The notes under the pieces were generated by a model that was not told where the DNA came from, made no database searches, and saw nothing but the letters and a program-made list of their open reading frames with translations. A stretch of 64,000 bases of DNA from Maribacter arenosus (lineage in GTDB: Bacteria > Bacteroidota > Bacteroidia > Flavobacteriales > Flavobacteriaceae): positions 558,001 through 622,000 of the forward strand of contig NZ_JABTCG010000001.1 in NCBI RefSeq assembly GCF_014610845.1. The letters are read 5' to 3'. Numbering within the stretch: the stretch's first letter is position 1; each line of letters opens with the position of its first letter. The translations under genes and the position numbers were made by a program. Below, piece by piece: positions 1 to 14,526 of this stretch.

Positions 1-1654
1 CATTGAGTTCGTATTCCGGTGTAAATATCCATTCTCCGGAATCCAATGTTATTTTATAGGTCAATTCCCCTGAACCAAAACCTAGGGCTGCAGGGTCGGC
101 ATGACATGATATGCAATTCCTCACGGCCTTGATAGTCGTATGTGGTGAATTAGGCGCGTACAATCGATGAAAGGAAATATCCTCCCCTGCTCGACCATTT
201 TCAAAACTACCCTTGTCCAAGGTCATGATCATTCCAGGAATAGCAGGTTCAAATTGTTTGCCTTCTCGTGACTCGCGCACACCGAGCGCTGGATAGGAGG
301 TTAAAAATTCTGCGACATGCTCTACCCATTGTCCGGTTACGTCTTTCTTATCCAATAGGTCAAATCCTTTAGGATCATCTTGGTCAAATACGTTATGGCA
401 GCCGATACACTTATTCGTCCAGGCCGAATGGCATGCGGCACAGCTCACATTCTTATGGGCATTGTCCCTTGAGCAGATTTCGGATTGTGGTTTTATTTCA
501 TGGATCTCACCGTCTTTCTTTCCGATTAAAAAAGCCTTATCTCCCTCCATATAGGTATTTACCAATGGATGTCCGTCTTTTTGGACGACCAGGATTGGTT
601 TATCGGAATGGGAATATTGTCTATGAAGGAATACCAATAGAGATTCATTGTCCAAGGAATCATAGGGAATTGTTCGTGGCTTTCCCTTATAATGACAATC
701 GGAACACTGCAATTTTACCGCTTCTTCCTCATGGGCATATAACTTGCCATCGCCCATAACTTCATGGCTCGAATGACAATCTATACACAACATATTGTTT
801 GTGTGGTGTACATCGGCCTCCATTTTGGCATACACCCTTAAATCTTCCAATACTCGATAATCGGGTTTGTCTTTTACTTCTTCCTTATCCAATAGTGTTT
901 CCCGCCAACCTTCATAGTTAGTCGATATTCGACTGGACCGACTATGGCAACCAAAACAATGCTGGTCATTCACGAAGATATCCGTTGCTGGGTGTATCTT
1001 AGGCAAGGATTTTTTGCCTGATTTAAGATATTCGGCCAAATCGGTCTTTGCATCATTAGAGTAATTTAAATGACAAGCGATGCAACCCCCGCCACGGCTC
1101 AAACTGTTTATAGCCCCAAATTCGGTTTTTTCGGCACCCAAGTGACAATTGGCGCAGAGATCCCTCAAATGTTTTTCAGAAGCCGTATATTTTATGTTTT
1201 CGATATGAAAATGATCATTAGGGGTTTCAGCTTCCCCAAAAATAAATTTATCAACTGCGACAATACCGCTATTCGTGGTCATGAGTGACATTTCTATTTT
1301 TGACAATTCACTGGGGTGGCATTTACCACAGGTTTCCCCAGCGTTACTAAGGTTGCCTGGAATTAGGACCATACCCCGGTGTGATTTATCCTTGTCAAAT
1401 TCCTTACCATCTCCCAAATGACAACTCACACAACCTATAAATTGTGGATTGTGGTACTCCGAAAATCCTTTGGTGTTTAGATGACATTGTAAACAGCTTT
1501 CTTCGGTTGCTGTAATGTCTATATAATCGGAAGTGCGCTGTATTCCTTTAAAAGGATAATCGAAAAACTTAATCGCTACTACAAAAAGTAATAACGCGAG
1601 TACTACCAATGCAATGCCAATTTTTTTTATATCCCCTATCGATTTTCTCTTCAT
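1..1654 (-). CDS. Multiheme cytochrome c (at least 11 hemes), 3' end outside window
   Basis: Reading the minus strand from the ATG at 1654 gives an open frame of about 551 codons that runs off the left edge. It starts with one membrane-spanning or uncleaved signal segment (about residues 11-32), then 11 CXXCH heme sites: CLQCH, CVSCH, CGKCH, CANCH, CIACH, CFGCH, CIDCH, CSDCH, CAACH, CIGCH and CISCH. It should therefore be a periplasmic, membrane-anchored electron-transfer protein or a multiheme reductase. It is divergent from the molybdoenzyme operon and shares its TGTAACAATTGTTACA palindrome, so the two are probably co-regulated and exchange electrons. Octaheme tetrathionate-reductase or MccA-like enzymes are possible relatives, but I cannot assign a subfamily. 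The plus-strand open frames at 433-759 and 1070-1288 are shadows of this gene. Confidence 0.9.
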   Translation of the reverse strand, partial: MKRKSIGDIKKIGIALVVLALLLFVVAIKFFDYPFKGIQRTSDYIDITATEESCLQCHLNTKGFSEYHNPQFIGCVSCHLGDGKEFDKDKSHRGMVLIPGNLSNAGETCGKCHPSELSKIEMSLMTTNSGIVAVDKFIFGEAETPNDHFHIENIKYTASEKHLRDLCANCHLGAEKTEFGAINSLSRGGGCIACHLNYSNDAKTDLAEYLKSGKKSLPKIHPATDIFVNDQHCFGCHSRSSRISTNYEGWRETLLDKEEVKDKPDYRVLEDLRVYAKMEADVHHTNNMLCIDCHSSHEVMGDGKLYAHEEEAVKLQCSDCHYKGKPRTIPYDSLDNESLLVFLHRQYSHSDKPILVVQKDGHPLVNTYMEGDKAFLIGKKDGEIHEIKPQSEICSRDNAHKNVSCAACHSAWTNKCIGCHNVFDQDDPKGFDLLDKKDVTGQWVEHVAEFLTSYPALGVRESREGKQFEPAIPGMIMTLDKGSFENGRAGEDISFHRLYAPNSPHTTIKAVRNCISCHADPAALGFGSGELTYKITLDSGEWIFTPEYELN

Positions 1655-1790: not shown

Positions 1791-1836
1791 CCAACTAGTA
1801 TGAAGATTATATCGACTACTATTGAAATTTGATCAT

Positions 1837-4080
1837 ATGGGTACATCAAGAAGAAAATTCATCAAAATTTCTGCTTTAGGTTTTGGTGGTGCGGCTGTCG
1901 CAGCCACCTCATTGGAAACTATTGGCCTAAATTCTTATTTAGAGGGATTGGCGTTGGAAAATTCCCTTGAAAAATTAAAACAAACCGCTACTTATTGCGA
2001 GGTCTGCTTTTGGAAATGTGCCGGATGGGTGCATTCTGATCGCGAGGGTAATATTCACAAGATCATAGGTAATAATATCGACCCCCATTGCAATGGCAGG
2101 TTATGTCCTCGTGGAACCGGCGGTGTAGGTATGTATTCTGATAATGACCGATTAAAGAAACCCTTGGTGCGAAAACTTATCGATGGGGAGGAGACTTTCG
2201 TCGAAACGAGCTGGGAAGAGGCATTGACCTTAATTGCATCAAAAATGAAAGCTATTAAGGAGGAATATGGTGCTGAAAGCATGGGATTATTAAAACATGG
2301 GGCTCCAGGATCACATTTTGAACATTTATTCAAGGCCTTTGGTTCTGACAGTATAGCCGAACCGGCATATGCACAATGTCGAGGCCCTAGGGAAACCGGA
2401 TTTGCGCTGACATTCGGTTCTTGGGTAGGCTCTCCAGAGCCAACGGATATCAGGGATACGAAATGTTTGGTTTTGATCGGTTCCCACATTGGTGAGAATA
2501 TGCACAATACCCAAGTGCAGGAAATGTCAGATGCCATTGATCAAGGAGCAACAATAATTACGGTCGACCCCCGACTTTCCACTGCAGCCAGTAAATCACA
2601 GCATTGGTTGGCAATTAAACCTTCAACAGATATAGCCCTACTGCTTGCTTGGATGAATGTACTCATCAATGAAAACCTATATGATAAGGCGTATGTGGAC
2701 AAGTATGGGTTGGGATTTGAGCAGTTGAAAGCCCACGTACAAGAGTATACCCCGGAATGGGCTTATGGAATTACAACGATCAAACCTGAGGAAATCAGAA
2801 AAACTGCCCGGATTATGGCGGCAGCAGCACCTGCGACCATAATTCATCCCGGACGACATGTTACTTGGTATGGTGATGATACCCAAAGAGCCAGGGCCAT
2901 GGCCATTTTAAATGGATTATTAGGGTCTTGGGGACGTAGGGGTGGATTTTATTTTAAAGAAAGTATCAGTGTTCCAAAATTCCCACATCCACCCTATCCA
3001 ACTCCAAAATGGGGATGGGAAGACATTGGTGAAAAATATCCATTTGCTGAAATGGGTATTACCAATGAATTAATTAGGGCTTCCATTCCTTCAGAAGAAA
3101 ATGAACATCCGATAAAAGCGTGGATGGTAGCCGGTACAAATTTGAACAATTCCATTCCCAATAAGAAATTATTGGAAGAGGCCATTGATGCCTTGGAGTT
3201 TATGGTCGTGGTAGATACCATGCCAATGGAAATAACCGGATATGCCGATGTTGTATTACCCGAATGCACCTATTTGGAACGTTACGATGGAATCAGGTCG
3301 GCGACCAATCGGGAACCATCCATTGCCCTGCGAATGCCAGCGGTTCCCCCAAGATTCGATTCTAAACCAGCTTGGTGGATCGCCAAACAATTGGGTGAAA
3401 AATTGGGGCTTCATGACTATTTCAACTACGACGATTATAAAGAAGTCATTGCATGGCAATTGAAAGAGATGGGCACTTCTTTGGAAGAGCTTGAAAAAAT
3501 TGGCGTGAAAAAATTCAAAAGAAAATCGGGTCCTATGTATTTGGAAGATGGGCAGAATTATGAATTTCTTACCGATAGCGGAAAGATCGAATTTTATTCC
3601 GCAGCCTTGGAAAGAAAAGGATTTGACCCTATGCCAAAATTTACGCAACACCCTGAACCGCAGCCTGGCTATTATAGACTAAACTATGGTAGATCTCCAA
3701 TGCACACATTTAGTAGAACTGTTAACAGCCCAAACCTGAACGACTTGAAGAGTGAGAATGATCTATGGGTCAATCCAAAGGTCGCCCGTATTTTGAATTT
3801 AAAAAAAGGGCAATATGTATGGTTAGAGAACCAAGATGGGGTTCAATCATCATTCCCTATTAGGGTTCGGGTAACAGAAAGAATCCGTTGGGATTCGGTT
3901 TATATGGTGCACGGTTTTGGCCATAACAATAAAAAGTTGGGCCGAGCCCATGGAAAGGGGGCCAGCGATACCCAATTGATCAGTCAAGTTGCCATAGACC
4001 CCATAATGGGCGGTACCGGAATGCGAGGAAACTTTGTAAAGATACTAACTGAAAATCCCACTAAAACGCTAGAAGTATGA
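1837..4080 (+). CDS. Tat-exported molybdopterin oxidoreductase, PsrA/PhsA type
   Basis: This is the catalytic subunit of a complex-iron-sulfur-molybdoenzyme. The ATG at 1837 puts a twin-arginine motif (SRRKFIK) and hydrophobic h-region at the very N-terminus, so I prefer it to the TTG at 1822. Residues 54, 57, 61 and 90 form the C-x2-C-x3-C-x28-C [4Fe-4S] site ending in LCPRG. Cys181 (in AQCRGPRE) is the likely molybdenum ligand. The rest carries the bis-MGD-binding domains, including a C-terminal molydopterin dinucleotide-binding region. It overlaps the next gene by 4 bases (ATGA). The FeS and NrfD partners give a PsrABC/PhsABC architecture, and the neighbouring sulfur genes suggest polysulfide, thiosulfate, tetrathionate or sulfite as substrate. 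Direction and substrate are inferred; arsenate-type relatives cannot be excluded. Confidence 0.88.
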   Translation: MGTSRRKFIKISALGFGGAAVAATSLETIGLNSYLEGLALENSLEKLKQTATYCEVCFWKCAGWVHSDREGNIHKIIGNNIDPHCNGRLCPRGTGGVGMYSDNDRLKKPLVRKLIDGEETFVETSWEEALTLIASKMKAIKEEYGAESMGLLKHGAPGSHFEHLFKAFGSDSIAEPAYAQCRGPRETGFALTFGSWVGSPEPTDIRDTKCLVLIGSHIGENMHNTQVQEMSDAIDQGATIITVDPRLSTAASKSQHWLAIKPSTDIALLLAWMNVLINENLYDKAYVDKYGLGFEQLKAHVQEYTPEWAYGITTIKPEEIRKTARIMAAAAPATIIHPGRHVTWYGDDTQRARAMAILNGLLGSWGRRGGFYFKESISVPKFPHPPYPTPKWGWEDIGEKYPFAEMGITNELIRASIPSEENEHPIKAWMVAGTNLNNSIPNKKLLEEAIDALEFMVVVDTMPMEITGYADVVLPECTYLERYDGIRSATNREPSIALRMPAVPPRFDSKPAWWIAKQLGEKLGLHDYFNYDDYKEVIAWQLKEMGTSLEELEKIGVKKFKRKSGPMYLEDGQNYEFLTDSGKIEFYSAALERKGFDPMPKFTQHPEPQPGYYRLNYGRSPMHTFSRTVNSPNLNDLKSENDLWVNPKVARILNLKKGQYVWLENQDGVQSSFPIRVRVTERIRWDSVYMVHGFGHNNKKLGRAHGKGASDTQLISQVAIDPIMGGTGMRGNFVKILTENPTKTLEV

Positions 4081-4610
4081 GATATGCCATGGTAATCGAC
4101 ACCAAAAAGTGTGTAGGTTGTAGTGACTGTGTAGTAGCATGCCAAACCGAGAACAATGTTCCCATAGGATACTGCCGGGATTGGATTACGGAACGCGTCG
4201 AAGGGACATACCCAAAGGTAGAATTGGAATTAAGGTCCGAGCGATGCAATCATTGTGAAAATGCGCCTTGTGTACGTTGTTGTCCGACAGGTGCAAGCCA
4301 TATTATAGATGGTGGTATCGTGCTGGTGACCCCCAATGAGTGTATAGGCTGTGGTGCCTGTATTGAATCATGTCCTTATGACGCAAGGTTCCAACATCCT
4401 GATGGTTATGTTGATAAGTGTACCTTCTGCCACCATAGATTGGAGAAAGGCCAACTCCCAGCTTGTGTTTCGGTATGCCCTACCAAATGCATGTATTTTG
4501 GCGATTTGGATAATCCCAATAGTGAGGTGTCACAATTACTCAAGGCAAGGAAACATAAAACCTTGGCGCCTGAAGCAGGTACAAAACCCCATGTTTATTA
4601 TTTAATATAA
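4077..4610 (+). CDS. 4x[4Fe-4S] ferredoxin subunit, PsrB/PhsB/NrfC type
   Basis: This 177-residue electron-transfer subunit carries electrons between the molybdoenzyme and the quinone-reactive membrane subunit. Four cysteine clusters are visible: CVGCSDCVVAC near the N-terminus, CNHCENAPCVRCC around residue 58, CIGCGACIESC around residue 90, and CTFC ... CVSVC with a following KC around 118-140. Together they bind four [4Fe-4S] centres. It has no signal peptide, as expected for a subunit that is co-exported with the Tat-tagged catalytic subunit. Its start overlaps the preceding stop by 4 bases, indicating translational coupling. Length and cluster order match the PsrB/PhsB family. Confidence 0.92.
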   Translation: MRYAMVIDTKKCVGCSDCVVACQTENNVPIGYCRDWITERVEGTYPKVELELRSERCNHCENAPCVRCCPTGASHIIDGGIVLVTPNECIGCGACIESCPYDARFQHPDGYVDKCTFCHHRLEKGQLPACVSVCPTKCMYFGDLDNPNSEVSQLLKARKHKTLAPEAGTKPHVYYLI

Positions 4611-4619
4611 GTCTTTAAA

Positions 4620-5561
4620 ATGGAAGAAGAATTATTCACAAGTGGTAGAAACATACCGAACATCGACCCTTCATTACAAATATGGCATTGGCCTATATCG
4701 GTATATCTTTTTTTAGGAGGTCTCGCAGCCGGACTCCTTTTTTTTGCGGCCCTGTTCACCGTATTAAAAAAAGATGGGGAAGTACCAGCAACGGTAAAGT
4801 ATGCAGTTATTATGGCACCCATCGCCTTGGTATTGGGGTTGATAGCCCTGTTTTATGACCTTACCCATAAATTTTATTTTTGGCAATTATACACGACTGT
4901 TAGAATAGAATCCCCCATGTCCTGGGGTGCATGGGTATTATTGCTCATTACTCCCCTATCCATGCTTTGGGTTTTCAGTTATTGGAAAGAGATTTTTCCT
5001 AAAATGGATATGAAGTTTGGTTTTTTAAGAAAATTCCAGTCTTTTTTGGTCAAGAATCGAATGAATATGGCCTATCTCCTTATTCCACTGGCAATTGTCC
5101 TGGGTATATATACAGGAATTCTACTATCGGCCTTTAATGCTAGACCATTATGGAACAATGCCATATTAGGGCCTTTGTTTTTGGTTTCCGGACTTTCTAC
5201 GGCCGCTGCCACCATAATATTATTCTCCAAATCACATAGCGAAAGAAGTCTATTTAGCAAGATCGATATTATCCTGATTGTTATTGAATTGGCCCTTATA
5301 GTTCATATGATCATGGGATATTGGGCAGGTTCGGAGGTTCAATTGGAAGCCATGGAACTCTTGATCAATGGTGAGTTTACGGTCATGTTCTTTGTTTTTG
5401 TGGTCATTCTGGGCTTGTTGGTCCCAGGATTCTTGGAAATATTAGAGTTGCGAGGTTATAAAGTTCCAGTTGTGGTTCCTGCCATTCTAATTCTTATTGG
5501 TGGTTTGGTGTTCCGATTTGTCATGGTTGAGGCAGGTCAATTAACAAGATATCTATATTAA
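4620..5561 (+). CDS. NrfD/PsrC-type integral membrane quinone-interacting subunit
   Basis: This 313-residue polytopic protein has about eight hydrophobic segments, consistent with the NrfD/PsrC family. These proteins anchor the periplasmic MoCo/FeS dimer and exchange electrons with menaquinone. Typical features include an N-terminal HWPISVYLFLGGLAAG segment and a last helix region with a conserved glutamate (VEAGQ). It follows the FeS gene by 9 bases and completes a PsrABC-like complex. MenB for menaquinone synthesis is encoded elsewhere in the window (40238-41083), compatible with a menaquinone partner. The family is clear; the substrate of the complex is not. Confidence 0.9.
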   Translation: MEEELFTSGRNIPNIDPSLQIWHWPISVYLFLGGLAAGLLFFAALFTVLKKDGEVPATVKYAVIMAPIALVLGLIALFYDLTHKFYFWQLYTTVRIESPMSWGAWVLLLITPLSMLWVFSYWKEIFPKMDMKFGFLRKFQSFLVKNRMNMAYLLIPLAIVLGIYTGILLSAFNARPLWNNAILGPLFLVSGLSTAAATIILFSKSHSERSLFSKIDIILIVIELALIVHMIMGYWAGSEVQLEAMELLINGEFTVMFFVFVVILGLLVPGFLEILELRGYKVPVVVPAILILIGGLVFRFVMVEAGQLTRYLY

Positions 5562-5576
5562 TATAAAGAGCATTCA

Positions 5577-6107
5577 ATGGATAAATCAAATTTTAACAAG
5601 CTACATGTATATTGGAACCCTTATTTCGGAGGATTCCTTTTAGGTCTTTTGATCATTTTCACCTTTTACATGACCGGGAGGGGCTTAGGGGCCAGTGGAG
5701 TAATGAAAAGTGGTGTTGTTACCATGGTCGATCAAGTCTCGCATGAACATACAATAAAGAATGCCTATTACAGCAAATTTGTAAGTGGGGACAAGTCCCC
5801 TATGAACAATTGGTTGGTTTTCGAAACTTTAGGGGTATTGGTAGGTGCTTTTATATCTGGCTCATTAGCAGGAAGAATAGGATTCAGGGTGCAACATTCC
5901 CCAAAGATTACCGTAAAAAGAAGATTGGTATTTGCTTTACTAGGAGGTGTCTTGTTTGGTCTGGGAGCACAAATAGCAAGAGGTTGTACCAGTGGGGCTG
6001 CCCTTAGCGGTATGGCGGTATTATCGACCGGTGGCTTTATTACCATGCTCTCTATTTTTGGGACTGCGTTCTTGTTCGCCTACCTATTTAGAAAAAATTG
6101 GATTTAA
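5577..6107 (+). CDS. YeeE/YedE sulfur transporter, first half (TsuA-like)
   Basis: This 176-residue membrane protein belongs to the YeeE/YedE (PF04143) family, whose characterised member TsuA takes up thiosulfate. TsuA is a single long polypeptide with three key cysteines. Here the transporter appears split over two genes (this one and 6127-6717). The conserved loop ARGCTSGAALSG near residue 140 carries one candidate relay Cys, and another hydrophobic hairpin lies near the N-terminus. It is 15 bases after the NrfD gene, so co-transcription is likely. Import or export of a thiosulfate-, sulfite- or polysulfide-like compound is inferred from family and context. Confidence 0.85.
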   Translation: MDKSNFNKLHVYWNPYFGGFLLGLLIIFTFYMTGRGLGASGVMKSGVVTMVDQVSHEHTIKNAYYSKFVSGDKSPMNNWLVFETLGVLVGAFISGSLAGRIGFRVQHSPKITVKRRLVFALLGGVLFGLGAQIARGCTSGAALSGMAVLSTGGFITMLSIFGTAFLFAYLFRKNWI

Positions 6108-6126: not shown

Positions 6127-6717
6127 ATGGGACCATTGATTCCTAACGGCTTTTTATCTTATGAATGGAATATCATCATTGCCGTCCTTATTGGTTTGGC
6201 TTTTGGTTTTATCCTTGAAGCTTCTGGTTTTTCCTCTTCTAGAAAATTGGCCGGTGTTTTTTATGGATATGATTTTGCCGTATTGAAAGTATTTTTTACC
6301 GCCGCATTGGTATCGGTAATTGGATTATATTATATGGACTATCTAGGTTGGATAAACATGTCTATGCTCTATGTACATCCCACGTATTTATGGGGCGCGA
6401 TTATTGGAGGCGCTATTATGGGGATAGGTTTCGTTGCAGGGGGCTTTTGTCCGGGTACAAGTATATGTGCCGTTGCCATTGGTAAATTGGATGCTTGGGT
6501 ATATGTTATTGGAATTATGATCGGCATTCTGATTTTTTCCGAAGCCTTTCCCATTTTTGAAAAAATTTATAATGGTTACTATCTCGGCAATATTACACTT
6601 GTCGATAGCTTCGAGCTGCCTGCCAGCTGGATAATTTTGGCGGTAACCCTACTTGCCCTTGTGGCCTTCTTTGTTTCAGATATTGTTCGTAAACGGGTTA
6701 AAAAGGTGTTTTATTAA
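6127..6717 (+). CDS. YeeE/YedE sulfur transporter, second half (DUF6691-like)
   Basis: This 196-residue polytopic protein is the partner half of the split YeeE/YedE transporter. The signature loop GGFCPGTSICAVAIGKLDAWVY (around residue 105) contains two cysteines. With the Cys in the upstream half, the pair would offer three cysteines, as in TsuA. It starts 19 bases after the first half and precedes the first tailed rhodanese-like gene by 18 bases. A sulfur channel with periplasmic rhodanese-fold partners is a reasonable inference. Confidence 0.85.
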   Translation: MGPLIPNGFLSYEWNIIIAVLIGLAFGFILEASGFSSSRKLAGVFYGYDFAVLKVFFTAALVSVIGLYYMDYLGWINMSMLYVHPTYLWGAIIGGAIMGIGFVAGGFCPGTSICAVAIGKLDAWVYVIGIMIGILIFSEAFPIFEKIYNGYYLGNITLVDSFELPASWIILAVTLLALVAFFVSDIVRKRVKKVFY

Positions 6718-6735: not shown

Positions 6736-7407
6736 ATGATCAACAGAAACTTAGCTAAAATCCTTTCCAAAAGATATATTATATTGGCCTCGCTGCTTTT
6801 TGTTGCCGCTTTGGGTCTGGTACTCTTACCGTCCTACCAAAAAAATGAAAATGTAACGGCAGAACATCTTTTGGCGAAAGTAATAAACCCCGAACGCTAT
6901 ATAACATCGGATGTATTGGCTGATAAGCTCATTTTAAAGGATCCGTCGATCCTTCTTATCGATGTGCGGGTAGTTTCCGAGTATGAAAAATACACCTTGC
7001 CCGGAGCCATCAATATACCTTTCGACTCTATTTTAAATCCAAATTATGAAGGGTATTTAAATCAGGACCAATATGACATTGTCTTATTCTCTAATGACAA
7101 TTTCAAGGCCGATCAAGCTTGGTTATTGTTGAATAGAAAGGACTATAAAAACCTCCATGTCCTAAACGGTGGTATAAACGGGTGGTACCACACCATTTTG
7201 AATCCGCCCAAACCTACCGAGGATATGCCTCAAGAGGCCTTTGAACTCTATAATTTCAGACAAGCTGCCGCCTTATATTTTGGTGTTGGTATAAAAACAA
7301 AAGTAAAGAAAGAGGCTACACCAATACCGGTAAAAAAAGTAGTGCCAAAAAAAGCTGTTGTCCCCGTAGTCAAAAAGAAAAAAAGAAAACCAGAAGGTGG
7401 TTGCTAA
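6736..7407 (+). CDS. Membrane-anchored rhodanese-fold protein lacking catalytic Cys, with C-terminal Cys tail
   Basis: This 223-residue protein has a positively charged N-terminus and one transmembrane helix (about residues 14-32), then a rhodanese-like domain (about 55-155; LLIDVRVVSEYEKYTLPGAINIP is diagnostic). The active-site loop, normally Cys-x5-R, reads VLFSNDNFK and contains no Cys. A Lys/Pro/Val-rich linker (about 185-212) leads to KKKKRKPEGGC at the extreme C-terminus. The final residue is the only Cys in the protein. The charge pattern places domain and tail in the periplasm. A terminal Cys on a flexible arm recalls the sulfur carriers SoxY (GGCGG) and DsrC (Cys next to the end), so a carrier role is plausible but unproven. 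Confidence 0.85.
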   Translation: MINRNLAKILSKRYIILASLLFVAALGLVLLPSYQKNENVTAEHLLAKVINPERYITSDVLADKLILKDPSILLIDVRVVSEYEKYTLPGAINIPFDSILNPNYEGYLNQDQYDIVLFSNDNFKADQAWLLLNRKDYKNLHVLNGGINGWYHTILNPPKPTEDMPQEAFELYNFRQAAALYFGVGIKTKVKKEATPIPVKKVVPKKAVVPVVKKKKRKPEGGC

Positions 7408-7419
7408 AAATATATCGAC

Positions 7420-8031
7420 ATGAAGGAATTGGAAAAAACTAAGCGAATCTCTATCTCTACCGTATTATTTATACTGGTGATCATTATTGGGGTCTTGACC
7501 TTTAAAATGCCGACAAATGTTTATAAGAAATCGAATGTCGAGACATTGGCCCTGCTCAAAACAGAGGATTATTTGGTGGCAAATACTGATATTGACCATT
7601 CAAATTCAGTACTGGTCGATATAAGGGACATCTTCGACTATTCGATAAACCATCTAGAAAATGCCGTAAATATTCCAACATCTGATATTTTAAATGAATC
7701 GAGCATTTCATTGTTCGATGAATTAAGGGATGCGGGTAAAACTGTCGTTCTCTATGGAAAAAATCCGAACGAGGCCAATAGTGCCTTTATAATATTGTAT
7801 CAACTGGGATACGAAAATATTAAAATATTGAATAGCACCACCCAATTGGTCGATAACGAGTTCCAGGTAAAAGATTATGATCTTGAGAAGCCCATTGCGA
7901 ACTATTTGGATATTTTCAAAAAAGTGGAACCAGAAGAACCTACCGTTGTAAAAAAAGCAGCTCCTAAACCACCTAAAAAAATCATTACAGTACAGAAAAA
8001 GAAAAAACGCAAACCTGAGGGCGGATGCTAA
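7420..8031 (+). CDS. Second membrane-anchored rhodanese-fold protein with the same C-terminal Cys tail
   Basis: This 203-residue protein has the same layout as its upstream neighbour: cytoplasmic basic N-terminus, one transmembrane helix (about 10-28), a degenerate rhodanese domain (VLVDIRDIFDYSINHLENAVNIP) and a Lys/Pro linker ending in KKKKRKPEGGC. The active-site loop reads VVLYGKNPNE, again without Cys, and the terminal residue is the sole Cys. The domains of the two proteins are quite divergent, yet the last 11 residues are identical while five of those codons differ synonymously. This argues for selection on the tail. It is the last gene of the operon, followed by a terminator. Confidence 0.85.
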   Translation: MKELEKTKRISISTVLFILVIIIGVLTFKMPTNVYKKSNVETLALLKTEDYLVANTDIDHSNSVLVDIRDIFDYSINHLENAVNIPTSDILNESSISLFDELRDAGKTVVLYGKNPNEANSAFIILYQLGYENIKILNSTTQLVDNEFQVKDYDLEKPIANYLDIFKKVEPEEPTVVKKAAPKPPKKIITVQKKKKRKPEGGC

Positions 8032-8367: not shown

Positions 8368-9366
8368 ATGAAAAGGCTATCTATTTTTCTAGTTGCTATT
8401 CTTATTTCGTCAGTTGCATTGCTGAGCAGTTTTACAAATAATGACCTCAATCGTTCTTCAATTGATCCACCTAATGAATTTGAGACCTTATTGAATTATT
8501 TCGAAACCAATAATAATTTCATCAATAGTCCGTCCTCCCCTGCTTTGGTCATGGCAGATGAAGTTAAAAAGAACATGAAGGATCCGAAATATCATATTAT
8601 CGATATTCGAACCGATAGTTGGTTTGAATATTCGCATATAAAAGATGCCAACAATGTTCAGCCAGAAGATCTGCTCACTTATTTTGAAACCAAAATCAGT
8701 CCTGCCGACTTTGACAAGATCGTATTGATATGTTATTCAGGCCAAAGCGCTGCCTATTTTACCAGTCTATTGCGTTTGGCCGGATATGATAATGTGTATA
8801 GCATGAAATGGGGAATGGGTTGTTGGCGATTGGATTTTGCAGAGGATACCTGGTTAAAAAACACTTCAGATGCTTTTGCCGACAAATTGGAAACCAATGA
8901 AAACGCAAAACCCGATAAAGGTTCATACCCTTCCTTAAATACTGGTAAAACAGAGGCACAGGAAATTTTAAGGGCACGATTGGAAAAAGCATTCGCAACT
9001 CCTTATAATGAGTATATCATAAAGTCAGAAGATATTTTTGCAAACCCCTCCGACTATTTTGTTTTGGATTACTGGGGTCAGGAAAAATACCAAAACGGAC
9101 ATATTCCAGGTGCGGTATTTTATGAGCCCAATGGGTCGTTGGCATCCACCACTGACCTCTCTACCCTACCTATTGACAAAAAAGTGGCTGTTTTTAGTGC
9201 TACTGGCCAAGAAGCAGCCTATGTGGTTGCCTACCTTAACCTTTTAGGATATGATGTAGGTAATGTCGCCTATGGGGCTAATGCCTTTATGAATAAGATC
9301 TTAAAAGAAAAAAACTGGGATGCTTTTACCAAAAAAGAAATCAACATGTTCCCAGTAATTGAATAA
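8368..9366 (+). CDS. Secreted twin-domain rhodanese (first domain active, second lacks Cys)
   Basis: This 332-residue protein has an N-terminal signal peptide (about 1-22) and two rhodanese domains. Domain 1 (about 60-175) has an intact sulfur-transfer loop ICYSGQSAA, whose Cys would carry the persulfide. In domain 2 (about 215-320) the corresponding loop reads FSATGQEAA, so the Cys is replaced by Ser. Twin-domain sulfurtransferases usually have one active domain, but it is normally the C-terminal one, so the order here is reversed. Periplasmic thiosulfate or polysulfide sulfur transfer is inferred. It is the first gene of the operon under operators A2 and B2, 29 bases before the next rhodanese gene. 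Confidence 0.87.
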   Translation: MKRLSIFLVAILISSVALLSSFTNNDLNRSSIDPPNEFETLLNYFETNNNFINSPSSPALVMADEVKKNMKDPKYHIIDIRTDSWFEYSHIKDANNVQPEDLLTYFETKISPADFDKIVLICYSGQSAAYFTSLLRLAGYDNVYSMKWGMGCWRLDFAEDTWLKNTSDAFADKLETNENAKPDKGSYPSLNTGKTEAQEILRARLEKAFATPYNEYIIKSEDIFANPSDYFVLDYWGQEKYQNGHIPGAVFYEPNGSLASTTDLSTLPIDKKVAVFSATGQEAAYVVAYLNLLGYDVGNVAYGANAFMNKILKEKNWDAFTKKEINMFPVIE

Positions 9367-9395: not shown

Positions 9396-10394
9396 ATGAA
9401 AAGAATATCATTGTATTTAATCGGACTTTTATTGTTGCCCTCATTATTGTTTACCTCTTGTGATCGAGGGGATGATATTGTAGATAGTGAATCGACTCCC
9501 GCATTTACTTTACTTAAAAACCACATGACAGCAAATGGGTTGGATATCGACAACATAGATACCAATGCAGATGGTGAAAAGTTTGTAGTTGGAGCCCCCG
9601 CTGCGGCCGATTTAGATGCGTTCCTTGCAAAATATACCATTATCGACATCAGAAGTAATACAGATTTTATGGCCAATCATATTCAAGGTGCGAAAAATGT
9701 AGCATTTGCTGATATCTTAACAGAAGCGGCGGCCTCAACAAAACCAGTTTTGGTAGTATGTTATACCGGCCAAACAGCTTGTTATGCGACTGCCTTAATG
9801 CGTTTGTATGGTTATTCACACACCAGGGCTTTAAAATGGGGAATGAGCGGTTGGAACCCGGCTACCGCAGGTCCTTGGAACAATAATATAGGCAATGCTG
9901 CCGATGGTCATTCCAATTGGTCATTTTCAAATGCCCCCACTACAGAAGTATTCTCTGATCCCGTAATTTCCAGCTTTTCAACGGATGGTGCCCAGATTCT
10001 TAAAGACAGGGTTGAACAAGTCGTAGCCGATGGATTCAAAACAGTTTCTGGGGCAGATGTTTTGGCCACGCCAAGCAATTATTTTATCAATAATTATTTC
10101 AGCGAAGCTGACTACTTAGGATTTGGTCATATCGATGGTGCTTACCGTATTTTACCGTTAACCCTCGCAGATAATACCTATTTGGGTCTTGATCCCAGTT
10201 CTAACGCAAAAGTGGTAAGCTATTGCTATACAGGGCAAACTTCCGCAGTCTTAACGGCTTGTTTAAGAGTATTGGGATATGATGCCTATAGTTTAACATT
10301 TGGTATGAACGGCATGTTCAATTCTAACCAAGCATTCACATCTAATCAATGGGGTGGTGACAGCAATCCAAAAAATTTACCATTGGTTAATTAA
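9396..10394 (+). CDS. Twin-domain rhodanese lipoprotein, both domains with catalytic Cys
   Basis: This 332-residue protein has a lipoprotein signal ending LLFTSC; the acidic stretch after the Cys (CDRGDD) resembles Bacteroidetes lipoprotein export signals, so surface display is possible. Domain 1 carries VCYTGQTAC and domain 2 carries YCYTGQTSA, so both keep the catalytic Cys. It is co-transcribed with, and similar in length and layout to, the preceding rhodanese, suggesting duplication. Together with the upstream tailed proteins the island has six rhodanese-fold domains, three of which retain the Cys. The role is probably extracytoplasmic sulfane-sulfur transfer; substrate unknown. Confidence 0.87.
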   Translation: MKRISLYLIGLLLLPSLLFTSCDRGDDIVDSESTPAFTLLKNHMTANGLDIDNIDTNADGEKFVVGAPAAADLDAFLAKYTIIDIRSNTDFMANHIQGAKNVAFADILTEAAASTKPVLVVCYTGQTACYATALMRLYGYSHTRALKWGMSGWNPATAGPWNNNIGNAADGHSNWSFSNAPTTEVFSDPVISSFSTDGAQILKDRVEQVVADGFKTVSGADVLATPSNYFINNYFSEADYLGFGHIDGAYRILPLTLADNTYLGLDPSSNAKVVSYCYTGQTSAVLTACLRVLGYDAYSLTFGMNGMFNSNQAFTSNQWGGDSNPKNLPLVN

Positions 10395-13419: not shown

Positions 13420-14526
13420 CTAGTAAGCCTGTGGAATAGCTTTTATATGGGCATATATCTTTTGTCCGTTTATTTCCGTTTCAAGGTCTTCTTTGTTCAA
13501 TTTGATTCCTTTAACATCGTTCAATTCACCATCTGGTGAAATAGCCTTGACACCATAGAACTTACCCTCAGCATTTATTGCCTTGACATGAACAATATTT
13601 CCTTCACGCAACACCCCTTTTACATCTAGTTTAGTACCTTCTTTGGTAATAGCCTTGATATCGAACAAAGTTCCGTTATCCGAAATTGCCTTTATAGGTT
13701 TATATTCATCCGAACTGATGATCATTTTTATGGGGAGGTATCCATTCTCACCAACAATGGTTTTAATATCCATTAAACTTCTTTGATAGGAATCCTGAAT
13801 GGCCTTCACATCATAAATTGCGCCATTGGTATCGAAGGCTTTTATATCCAACACATAGCCTTCTGGATGAATGGCCTTGATATGCCACCTCCCATTGTTG
13901 CTTGCCTCACCTGCTTGGGGGAGCGCCTTAACGTGGGCATAAACAGCATGCCCATTGATCAATACCTCTGTCTGATCATCGGTCATTTTTACGCCTTTAA
14001 CGTCATTTAGCCTACCTTCAGGGGAAATGGCCTTTATACCATAAAAATCCCCTGCTTTGCTTATGGCCTTGATGTGGATGATATTTTTGGTCCTACTCAC
14101 ACCCTTGACATCCAAGGTATCCCCTTCGGGGGGCAAAGCCTTGATATCATATACACTGCCGTCATCGGCGAGTGCCTTTACTCGAGTATACTTATCACCA
14201 CTTACCAACAATTTCACAGGTAACTGTTTGTCGCCGACCAGTGCCTTTATATCCATAAAACTGGTCTGTTTGGTATGTTGAATGGCCTTGACATCAAAGA
14301 TGTTGCCATCCTTGTCTATGGCTTTGACATCGATTAACCTACCATCTGGATGAATGGTCTTAATATGCCAAATAACCATTTCATCGGTTATCGCCATATC
14401 CGATTCAATGGTTTTTGAAGTTTCCTTTTCAATTTCTTTACAATTGCTTAAAACAACTAATATTGCTAGAAGAAAAATGCTCCAGAATTTATGGAGTACT
14501 GATGAAATGTGGTATGCTTTTCCCAT
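13420..14526 (-). CDS. VKAI-repeat lipoprotein with internal duplication
   Basis: This 368-residue protein has an N-terminal hydrophobic signal and a probable lipidated Cys (SNCKEIEKE, with a Lys/Glu-rich export-type stretch). The rest is built from repeats of about 17-20 residues with a core of D-[VI]-K-A-[IL] followed by a Gly-containing turn. Two halves of about 150-160 residues (starting WHIKTIHPDGR and WHIKAIHPEGY) match along their length and both end AH[VI]KA[LI]PQA, so the protein arose by tandem duplication. The regular beta-like repeat suggests a propeller or solenoid at the cell surface. I do not recognise a characterised family. Confidence 0.8.
   Translation of the reverse strand: MGKAYHISSVLHKFWSIFLLAILVVLSNCKEIEKETSKTIESDMAITDEMVIWHIKTIHPDGRLIDVKAIDKDGNIFDVKAIQHTKQTSFMDIKALVGDKQLPVKLLVSGDKYTRVKALADDGSVYDIKALPPEGDTLDVKGVSRTKNIIHIKAISKAGDFYGIKAISPEGRLNDVKGVKMTDDQTEVLINGHAVYAHVKALPQAGEASNNGRWHIKAIHPEGYVLDIKAFDTNGAIYDVKAIQDSYQRSLMDIKTIVGENGYLPIKMIISSDEYKPIKAISDNGTLFDIKAITKEGTKLDVKGVLREGNIVHVKAINAEGKFYGVKAISPDGELNDVKGIKLNKEDLETEINGQKIYAHIKAIPQAY

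Follow-up and report, generated by a model that had tools for sequence, protein, structure and literature searches.

What task is left to a rhodanese without its catalytic cysteine? The question is raised by two adjacent genes of Maribacter arenosus, P1 and P2, which lie in a window of 64,000 nucleotides (the whole stretch of DNA analysed here) from a genome of 4.17 Mb. Each encodes an anchored rhodanese-like protein, both proteins end in the same tail, KKKKRKPEGGC, and both stand behind genes for a molybdoenzyme and for the two halves of a sulfur transporter.

Two rhodanese-like proteins and their locus

Between positions 1822 and 10394, the + strand carries in order PsrA, PsrB, PsrC, YeeE_A, YeeE_B, P1, P2, R3 and R4. 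These genes, and the sites within P1 and P2 that matter for what follows, are:

1822..4080, + strand: PsrA/PhsA-type molybdopterin oxidoreductase (Pfam and NCBIfam matches; Tat-like signal SRRKFIK, by eye)
4077..4610, + strand: PsrB-type iron-sulfur subunit
4620..5561, + strand: PsrC/NrfD-type membrane subunit
5577..6107, + strand: YeeE_A, C-terminal half of a split YeeE/YedE transporter (PF04143 176-309)
6127..6717, + strand: YeeE_B, N-terminal half of the split YeeE/YedE transporter (PF04143 7-149)
6736..7407, + strand: P1 (223 aa), with an N-terminal anchor helix, a Cys-less rhodanese domain, a Lys-rich linker and the terminal Cys223
7090..7092, + strand: codon of P1 Ser119, at the place of the catalytic Cys
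7372..7404, + strand: P1 tail KKKKRKPEGGC, residues 213-223
7420..8031, + strand: P2 (203 aa), a P1 paralog on the same plan, with the terminal Cys203
7756..7758, + strand: codon of P2 Gly113, which takes the position of the catalytic Cys (assigned by eye)
7996..8028, + strand: P2 tail KKKKRKPEGGC, residues 193-203
8368..9366, + strand: R3, a tandem rhodanese with a signal-like start and one active-type CYSGQS loop (by eye)
9396..10394, + strand: R4, a tandem rhodanese with a lipoprotein-like start and two CYTGQT loops (by eye)

On the 3' side of R4 come a porin-like protein, recognised by eye, and then a Crp-type regulator. At the other end of the locus, a multiheme c-type cytochrome (window 2-1654, - strand) runs off the window and is encoded away from psrA. 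Its visible part has 11 CxxCH motifs, and most full-length relatives have 12. Relatives are found in 26 of 39 PsrA-holding loci, a few of them partial and some in the other orientation, and the cytochrome is likely to be the electron partner of the Psr enzyme. Farther along the window, a 368-aa protein made of repeated VKAI/VKGV/IKAI units is encoded at 13420-14526 (- strand). An Rfam scan of the window gives nothing at the gathering score.

The nearest named full-length match of P1 is a protein of Maribacter luteus (78% identity), and P1 and P2 are 30% identical to each other. In a Pfam scan at E<=0.001 both match PF00581 (Rhodanese) alone, with 54.0 bits for P1 and 45.8 bits for P2 against a curated cut-off of 22.2; every NCBIfam match of the two proteins and of four relatives falls far under its cut-off. 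The catalytic Cys is missing from both domains. The active-site Cys of 6mxv aligns with Ser119 of P1, and Gly113 takes this position in P2. Each protein has one Cys, and in each it is the final residue. Translation and Pfam thus bear out the plan given in the initial annotation, namely an anchor, a rhodanese domain without the catalytic Cys and a sole Cys at the very end, except that this last trait belongs to P1, P2 and their near relatives, many other relatives having a second, non-catalytic Cys. Reading both genes also confirms that the 11-residue tails are identical despite five synonymous codon differences (Arg AGA/CGC, Pro CCA/CCT, Glu GAA/GAG, Gly GGT/GGC and Gly GGT/GGA, in P1 and P2, respectively). 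The pattern EGGC followed by a stop codon occurs in the genome three times forward and never in reverse. Two of the three sites are P1 and P2. The remaining one terminates an ORF of 50 aa, in favour of which nothing was seen.

A family with a cysteine near its end

A P1 ortholog (E<=1e-35) is present in 25 of 299 genomes from the family to which its own genome belongs, that genome counted. All 29 rows of the P1 alignment, A1, keep Ser119-Asn120 and Cys223. When used as a profile at E<=1e-12, A1 matches 6 of 395 genomes at the class level and 60 of 395 at the phylum level, with the own genome in both counts; at least one of the matched genomes (G816, locus L159) holds an ordinary rhodanese. Such ordinary rhodaneses (L084 10908, L089 5789, L159, L166) were dropped before the family was counted, and L156, a YeeE_B fusion that ends in GGCS and is better matched by A2, was left out. 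The family then consists of 97 distinct proteins, P1 included. At the catalytic position these have Ser (54), Ala (24), Gly (16), Asp (1) or Cys (2). The Cys in the active-site loop that characterises an active rhodanese is absent from P1, from P2 and from 95 of the 97 relatives. The two proteins that have it, L069 (YCEDN) and L117 (YCENN), carry a terminal Cys as well, and are possible evolutionary intermediates. The last Cys is the final residue in 85 proteins and the second-last in 11, where it is followed by G, S, A or T. One protein, L154, has no Cys tail, but its gene is frameshifted and the tail is readable in another frame. The combination of anchor, Cys-less rhodanese domain and Cys tail, for which the initial annotation suggested searching, is therefore widespread in the phylum, with 96 of the 97 proteins Cys-tipped and with split YeeE and PsrABC as companions.

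A terminal Cys that arises by chance can be set aside. Loci of at least 5 kb contain 911 genes that encode 150 aa or more. A Cys is present in the last two residues of 112 of their products, and 108 of these 112 match A1 or A2. Among genes matching neither profile, such a Cys is seen in just 4 of 774 (5 if the genes are sorted by tail pattern instead). Genes with a near-terminal Cys at some of the control YeeE loci encode SBF-family transporters and a DNA alkylation repair protein, and are unrelated to the family.

Because A1 includes the tail, and can thus favour tailed proteins, a profile free of both anchor and tail was applied to the ORFs of the loci already collected, mostly by the tail-including profile. 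It gives 173 matches. A terminal Cys is missing from 36 of them, namely from five P2 proteins, from L154 and from 30 further proteins. Among these 30, 25 are active-type by motif and two on reading (L131 1079-1453, CATGSR; L005 1393-1893, CSVGVR), and the kind of the last three, proteins of 559-562 aa in L041, L042 and L138, is unsettled. No untailed P1-type protein other than the frameshifted L154 comes up. A search by transporter yielded seven loci that lack an A1 match; six of them (L160-L165) have a tailed protein and L166 has another type of YeeE, in a sample that is not blind, because five of the seven were chosen for a frame of fusion length. Twenty other Sulf_transp loci, most with short halves and some ending at contig ends, hold no family member. 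The initial annotation had expected that no homologue would lack the terminal Cys while keeping the same neighbours. For P1 this holds apart from the frameshifted L154. For P2 it does not, since 5 of 34 loci have an untailed P2 among the same neighbours, which argues against two tails being strictly required.

In the 96 tails, the residues directly before the Cys are GG in 69, and the remaining tails end in EGC (19), MGC (4), GLC (2), DGC (1) or FQC (1). One family member, L138 3165-3863 (+ strand), ends in EEEDLRFQC, with no Gly adjacent to its Cys. The last 31 residues of the 96 proteins hold on average 7.8 Lys+Arg against 2.6 Asp+Glu, and the arm that leads from the end of the rhodanese core to the tip spans 48-77 residues in the 95 relatives measured.

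By the charge rule, the N-terminus of the anchor lies inside in 59 of the 63 unfused proteins and in 31 of the 34 fusions, two of the fusions (L075 and L142) having a doubtful helix assignment. P2 of L038 and L039 has a lipoprotein-like start, as do, by eye, the R4-type proteins; the R3-type proteins begin with signal-like sequences, also by eye. Taken together, the charge rule and the lipoprotein-type starts suggest that the rhodanese domain probably lies on the periplasmic side of the membrane. The AlphaFold model of P1 has a mean pLDDT of 47.9, and little in it is supported beyond the N-terminal helix.

The transporter, the Psr enzyme and the paired tails

The two genes before P1 encode separate halves with one conserved Cys each, as expected of a split YeeE/YedE transporter of the PmpAB/YedE1E2 kind. 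Cys137 of YeeE_A and Cys108 of YeeE_B are each kept in 80 of the 80 loci compared, and they align with Cys residues of 8J4C and 6LEO, the alignment of YeeE_B being weak (E 0.15). In YeeE, Cys293 counts as the first Cys, Cys91 as the second and Cys22 as the third; the fourth, Cys17, belongs to the cytoplasmic partner YeeD and lies beside Cys22 (PMC11073785). Equivalents of YeeE Cys293 and Cys91 are present in PmpA and PmpB (PMC11582611), and the split YedE1E2 imports zero-valent sulfur, for which both Cys are required (PMC10812762). In 34 of the 97 family proteins, the rhodanese is fused behind YeeE_B in a single chain, and all 34 have a YeeE_B match. The fusions L112 and L118, as read, have a hydrophobic helix between YeeE_B and the rhodanese, and Pfam matches both the transporter and the rhodanese domain in L112 and L160. 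TusA, the usual cytoplasmic acceptor, was also looked for; PF01206 has no match in the whole genome of M. arenosus (G000), with the control positive in 11 of 14 genomes, so that sulfur, once imported, would need a different acceptor. In L181 and L182, a split YeeE-like pair is followed by an SBF-family transporter, with ArsR-like and arsenate-reductase-like genes nearby (by eye).

PsrA was searched in 41 genomes, all but two controls having been chosen for a transporter locus without Psr. In 37 of the 41, which have a tailed protein and the transporter, no PsrA is found at E<=1e-60. The four positive genomes are the two positive controls (G741, G965) and two that hold a second, Psr-linked locus (G695, G732). 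The reverse situation is seen in G181, where PsrABC-P1-P2 with identical tails occur and PF04143 has no match at E<=0.001 (the genome is 99% complete and the locus lies at a contig end). In G223, PsrABC-P1-P2 are adjacent, and no PF04143 match lies closer to them than about 24 kb. Since the tailed protein occurs with either client alone, a shared carrier fits better than a part of one machine. Psr status is known for 75 of the 97 proteins, L154 not counted, of which 37 are Psr-linked and 38 Psr-free. An acidic residue stands before the G(G)C in 32 of the former and in none of the latter (Fisher 3e-16), but on the tree this pattern goes back to three independent changes (sign test p 0.25), and for this reason no association is claimed.

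The initial annotation had also placed active rhodaneses among the partners. The company of split YeeE and PsrABC is upheld by these comparisons; the link to active rhodaneses is weaker, with R3/R4-type genes in 14 of 46 loci, some of these loci being short. Tails of this kind do occur on four active rhodaneses of other genomes (L014, L045, L099, L100). In L099 (5693-6868, - strand) and L100 (6549-7727, - strand) an active tandem rhodanese has a KKKEV(T/S)GGCG tail like that of both dead paralogs there, and L045 (715-1968, - strand) encodes a triple active rhodanese of 417 aa with a lipoprotein-like start and the tail HGSHGGEEGC. The R3-type active rhodanese L089 5789-6811 (- strand) ends in APGCD, with the Cys second-last, in a genome that also has a tailed P1 and P2.

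The two tails of a genome go together. Over 11 residues, P1 and P2 tails of 29 genomes share an identity of 0.887 within genomes and 0.636 between them (p<=5e-5; 20,000 permutations, maximum 0.737), the five untailed P2 being excluded so that 29 of the 34 pairs are used. For 17 representatives with less than 70% body identity, the values are 0.856 within and 0.552 between. The rhodanese bodies do not co-vary (0.277 within versus 0.274 between genomes), and the earlier impression that the tails resemble each other beyond the likeness of the folds is thereby substantiated. In 22 of the 29 cases, the partner from the own genome is the best or tied tail match. Compared with the P1 tail of the nearest relative having less than 85% body identity, the tail of the same-genome paralog is closer in 14, equal in 10 and farther in 5 (n=29).

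A proposed mechanism, its rivals and known systems

It seems fairly probable that P1 and P2 are membrane-tethered periplasmic carriers, whose Cys-tipped arm hands sulfane sulfur to the split YeeE transporter and to PsrA. The inactive rhodanese domain would serve as a scaffold or docking domain, and the Lys-rich arm, presumably flexible, would carry one Cys at its tip. Polysulfide or thiosulfate in the periplasm may load this Cys with sulfane sulfur, as may active rhodaneses, R3 and R4 among them. The Cys would then give the sulfur to the split YeeE, where Cys137 of YeeE_A and Cys108 of YeeE_B could relay it onward to the cytoplasm. The Psr-type molybdoenzyme, where present, may be a second client of the arm, and both the hand-over and its direction are part of the proposal. 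Since the transporter Cys are aligned and conserved, and the tether is 48-77 residues long, the tip Cys could reach the outer Cys and start the relay. As the Cys-tailed design is common in the phylum, beside the importer or fused to it, sulfur is probably handed both to the importer and to the sulfur-converting enzyme. A bolder version, which we put forward tentatively, is that these are phylum-wide, transporter-dedicated carriers in which the rhodanese Cys has moved to the tip of a tether that serves the outer face of the split channel; sulfur would pass from the tip Cys to YeeE_A Cys137 and then to YeeE_B Cys108, the arm would also feed Psr, and the tail shared within each cell would be an address code tuned to its clients.

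Several alternatives have to be weighed against a carrier of sulfane sulfur. With the help of its Lys patch, the arm might take up whole thiosulfate or polysulfide (as a Cys-S-thiosulfonate or Cys-polysulfide) and otherwise be the same carrier. The basic tails would suit such a cargo, thiosulfate is the substrate moved by YeeE proteins (PMC11073785), and Cys-S-thiosulfonates are formed by DsrE3A and TusA (PMC4175335); the split pair that has been studied moves zero-valent sulfur, however (PMC10812762), and we find this cargo rather unlikely. That the tip Cys carries no sulfur at all, and acts as a thiol reductant or disulfide partner which frees sulfur from the transporter or PsrA, or clamps them, is doubtful. 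A long arm that ends in a thiol would be capable of both, and a DsbA-like protein with a C-terminal CxxC has been proposed for SoxT1A (PMC11582611), yet a single-Cys protein cannot cycle a dithiol alone, the fold is one of sulfur transfer, and similar tails are found on active rhodaneses in four genomes (L014, L045, L099, L100). The fusion to YeeE_B and the close proximity of the transporter genes would also agree with a tail that gates or plugs the YeeE pore, its Cys sensing sulfur in a regulatory manner. We regard this as very improbable, because tails are kept in G181, where YeeE was not found, and in G223, where the Sulf_transp matches lie elsewhere.

On a more trivial reading, a recent gene conversion made the P1 and P2 tails identical, and their identity has no functional meaning. 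The tails are simple and rich in Lys, short repetitive tracts are readily converted, and in some genomes few tail codons differ (L086 3/15, L100 3/16, for example). Over all pairs, the tails share 364 degenerate codons, and 162 of these differ; were they independent, a rough pooled codon usage would predict 185 differences. Recent conversion is therefore not the whole explanation, and an older conversion may have helped by once equalising the tails. The tip Cys is also kept in single-copy and fused forms, and conversion without function appears highly unlikely to us. A last reading makes P1 and P2 di-Gly sulfur carriers of the ThiS/MoaD/QbsE-like kind, whose final Cys would be cut off to expose Gly-Gly. 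A GG directly before the Cys, as in 69 of the 96 tails, would agree with this; the other 27 keep the Cys without GG, the Pfam scan shows no beta-grasp domain, and this reading is scarcely credible.

The sulfane-sulfur carrier that we favour can be set beside known systems. The initial annotation likened the tails to the arms of SoxY and DsrC, and the comparison is sound as to the Cys arm and the way it would work; by the Pfam scan, P1 and P2 belong to neither family. SoxY, the periplasmic carrier of the Sox pathway (as SoxYZ), has one near-C-terminal Cys on a mobile arm with the motif GGCGG. P1 and P2 end in GGC, and two relatives in KKKEV(T/S)GGCG, which is a likeness of motif only: PF13501 is not matched, the fold is that of a rhodanese, and members of the family are membrane-anchored or fused to the transporter. 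DsrC/TusE is cytoplasmic and has a flexible C-terminal arm with a near-terminal Cys. Its fold differs too, and P1 and P2 have no DsrC match in Pfam. Sud of Wolinella is a periplasmic polysulfide-binding rhodanese thought to hand sulfur to Psr via the Cys of its domain. P1 and P2 are likewise rhodanese-fold proteins near Psr, but by description they are set apart from Sud, as they have lost the domain Cys and keep a constant Cys at the arm tip instead.

YeeD/TsuB is a small Cys protein dedicated to YeeE, with natural YeeE-YeeD fusions (PMC11073785); it works on the cytoplasmic side, has a TusA-like fold and decomposes thiosulfate, whereas P1 and P2 are probably periplasmic, have a rhodanese fold and lack PF01206. 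In a Bacteroidetes/Chlorobi relative, psrABC is accompanied by a "rhodanese-related sulfurtransferase" and by a DUF395 sulfur transporter that has two Sulf_transp domains (PMC6338057). By its description the cluster looks the same, and the relevant passage is silent on a lost active site, a terminal Cys, a fusion or the tails of paralogs. SoxT1A/SoxT1B is a YeeE-like importer that, similarly, is believed to depend on a partner in the periplasm for the presentation of sulfur; the feeders proposed there are SoxYZ with DsbA or SoxS, and the presentation of sulfur is left open (PMC11582611). SaoC, a transporter-associated "Cys-Cys-COOH selenoprotein" named for its C-terminal Cys, is comparable by description, and is listed with ABC transporter subunits (PMC13188914). 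Among the titles and abstracts that searches of the open-licence literature brought up, none describes a rhodanese that bears a terminal Cys arm and is linked to YeeE.

The way in which YeeE-type importers are offered reactive sulfur from outside is unsettled (PMC11582611), and this family provides a concrete and common candidate, with natural fusions that unite the carrier and one half of the channel in a single chain. If the proposal is true, a SoxY-like Cys arm would have evolved on one more scaffold, and the name "rhodanese sulfurtransferase" would be corrected for proteins that have no rhodanese Cys.
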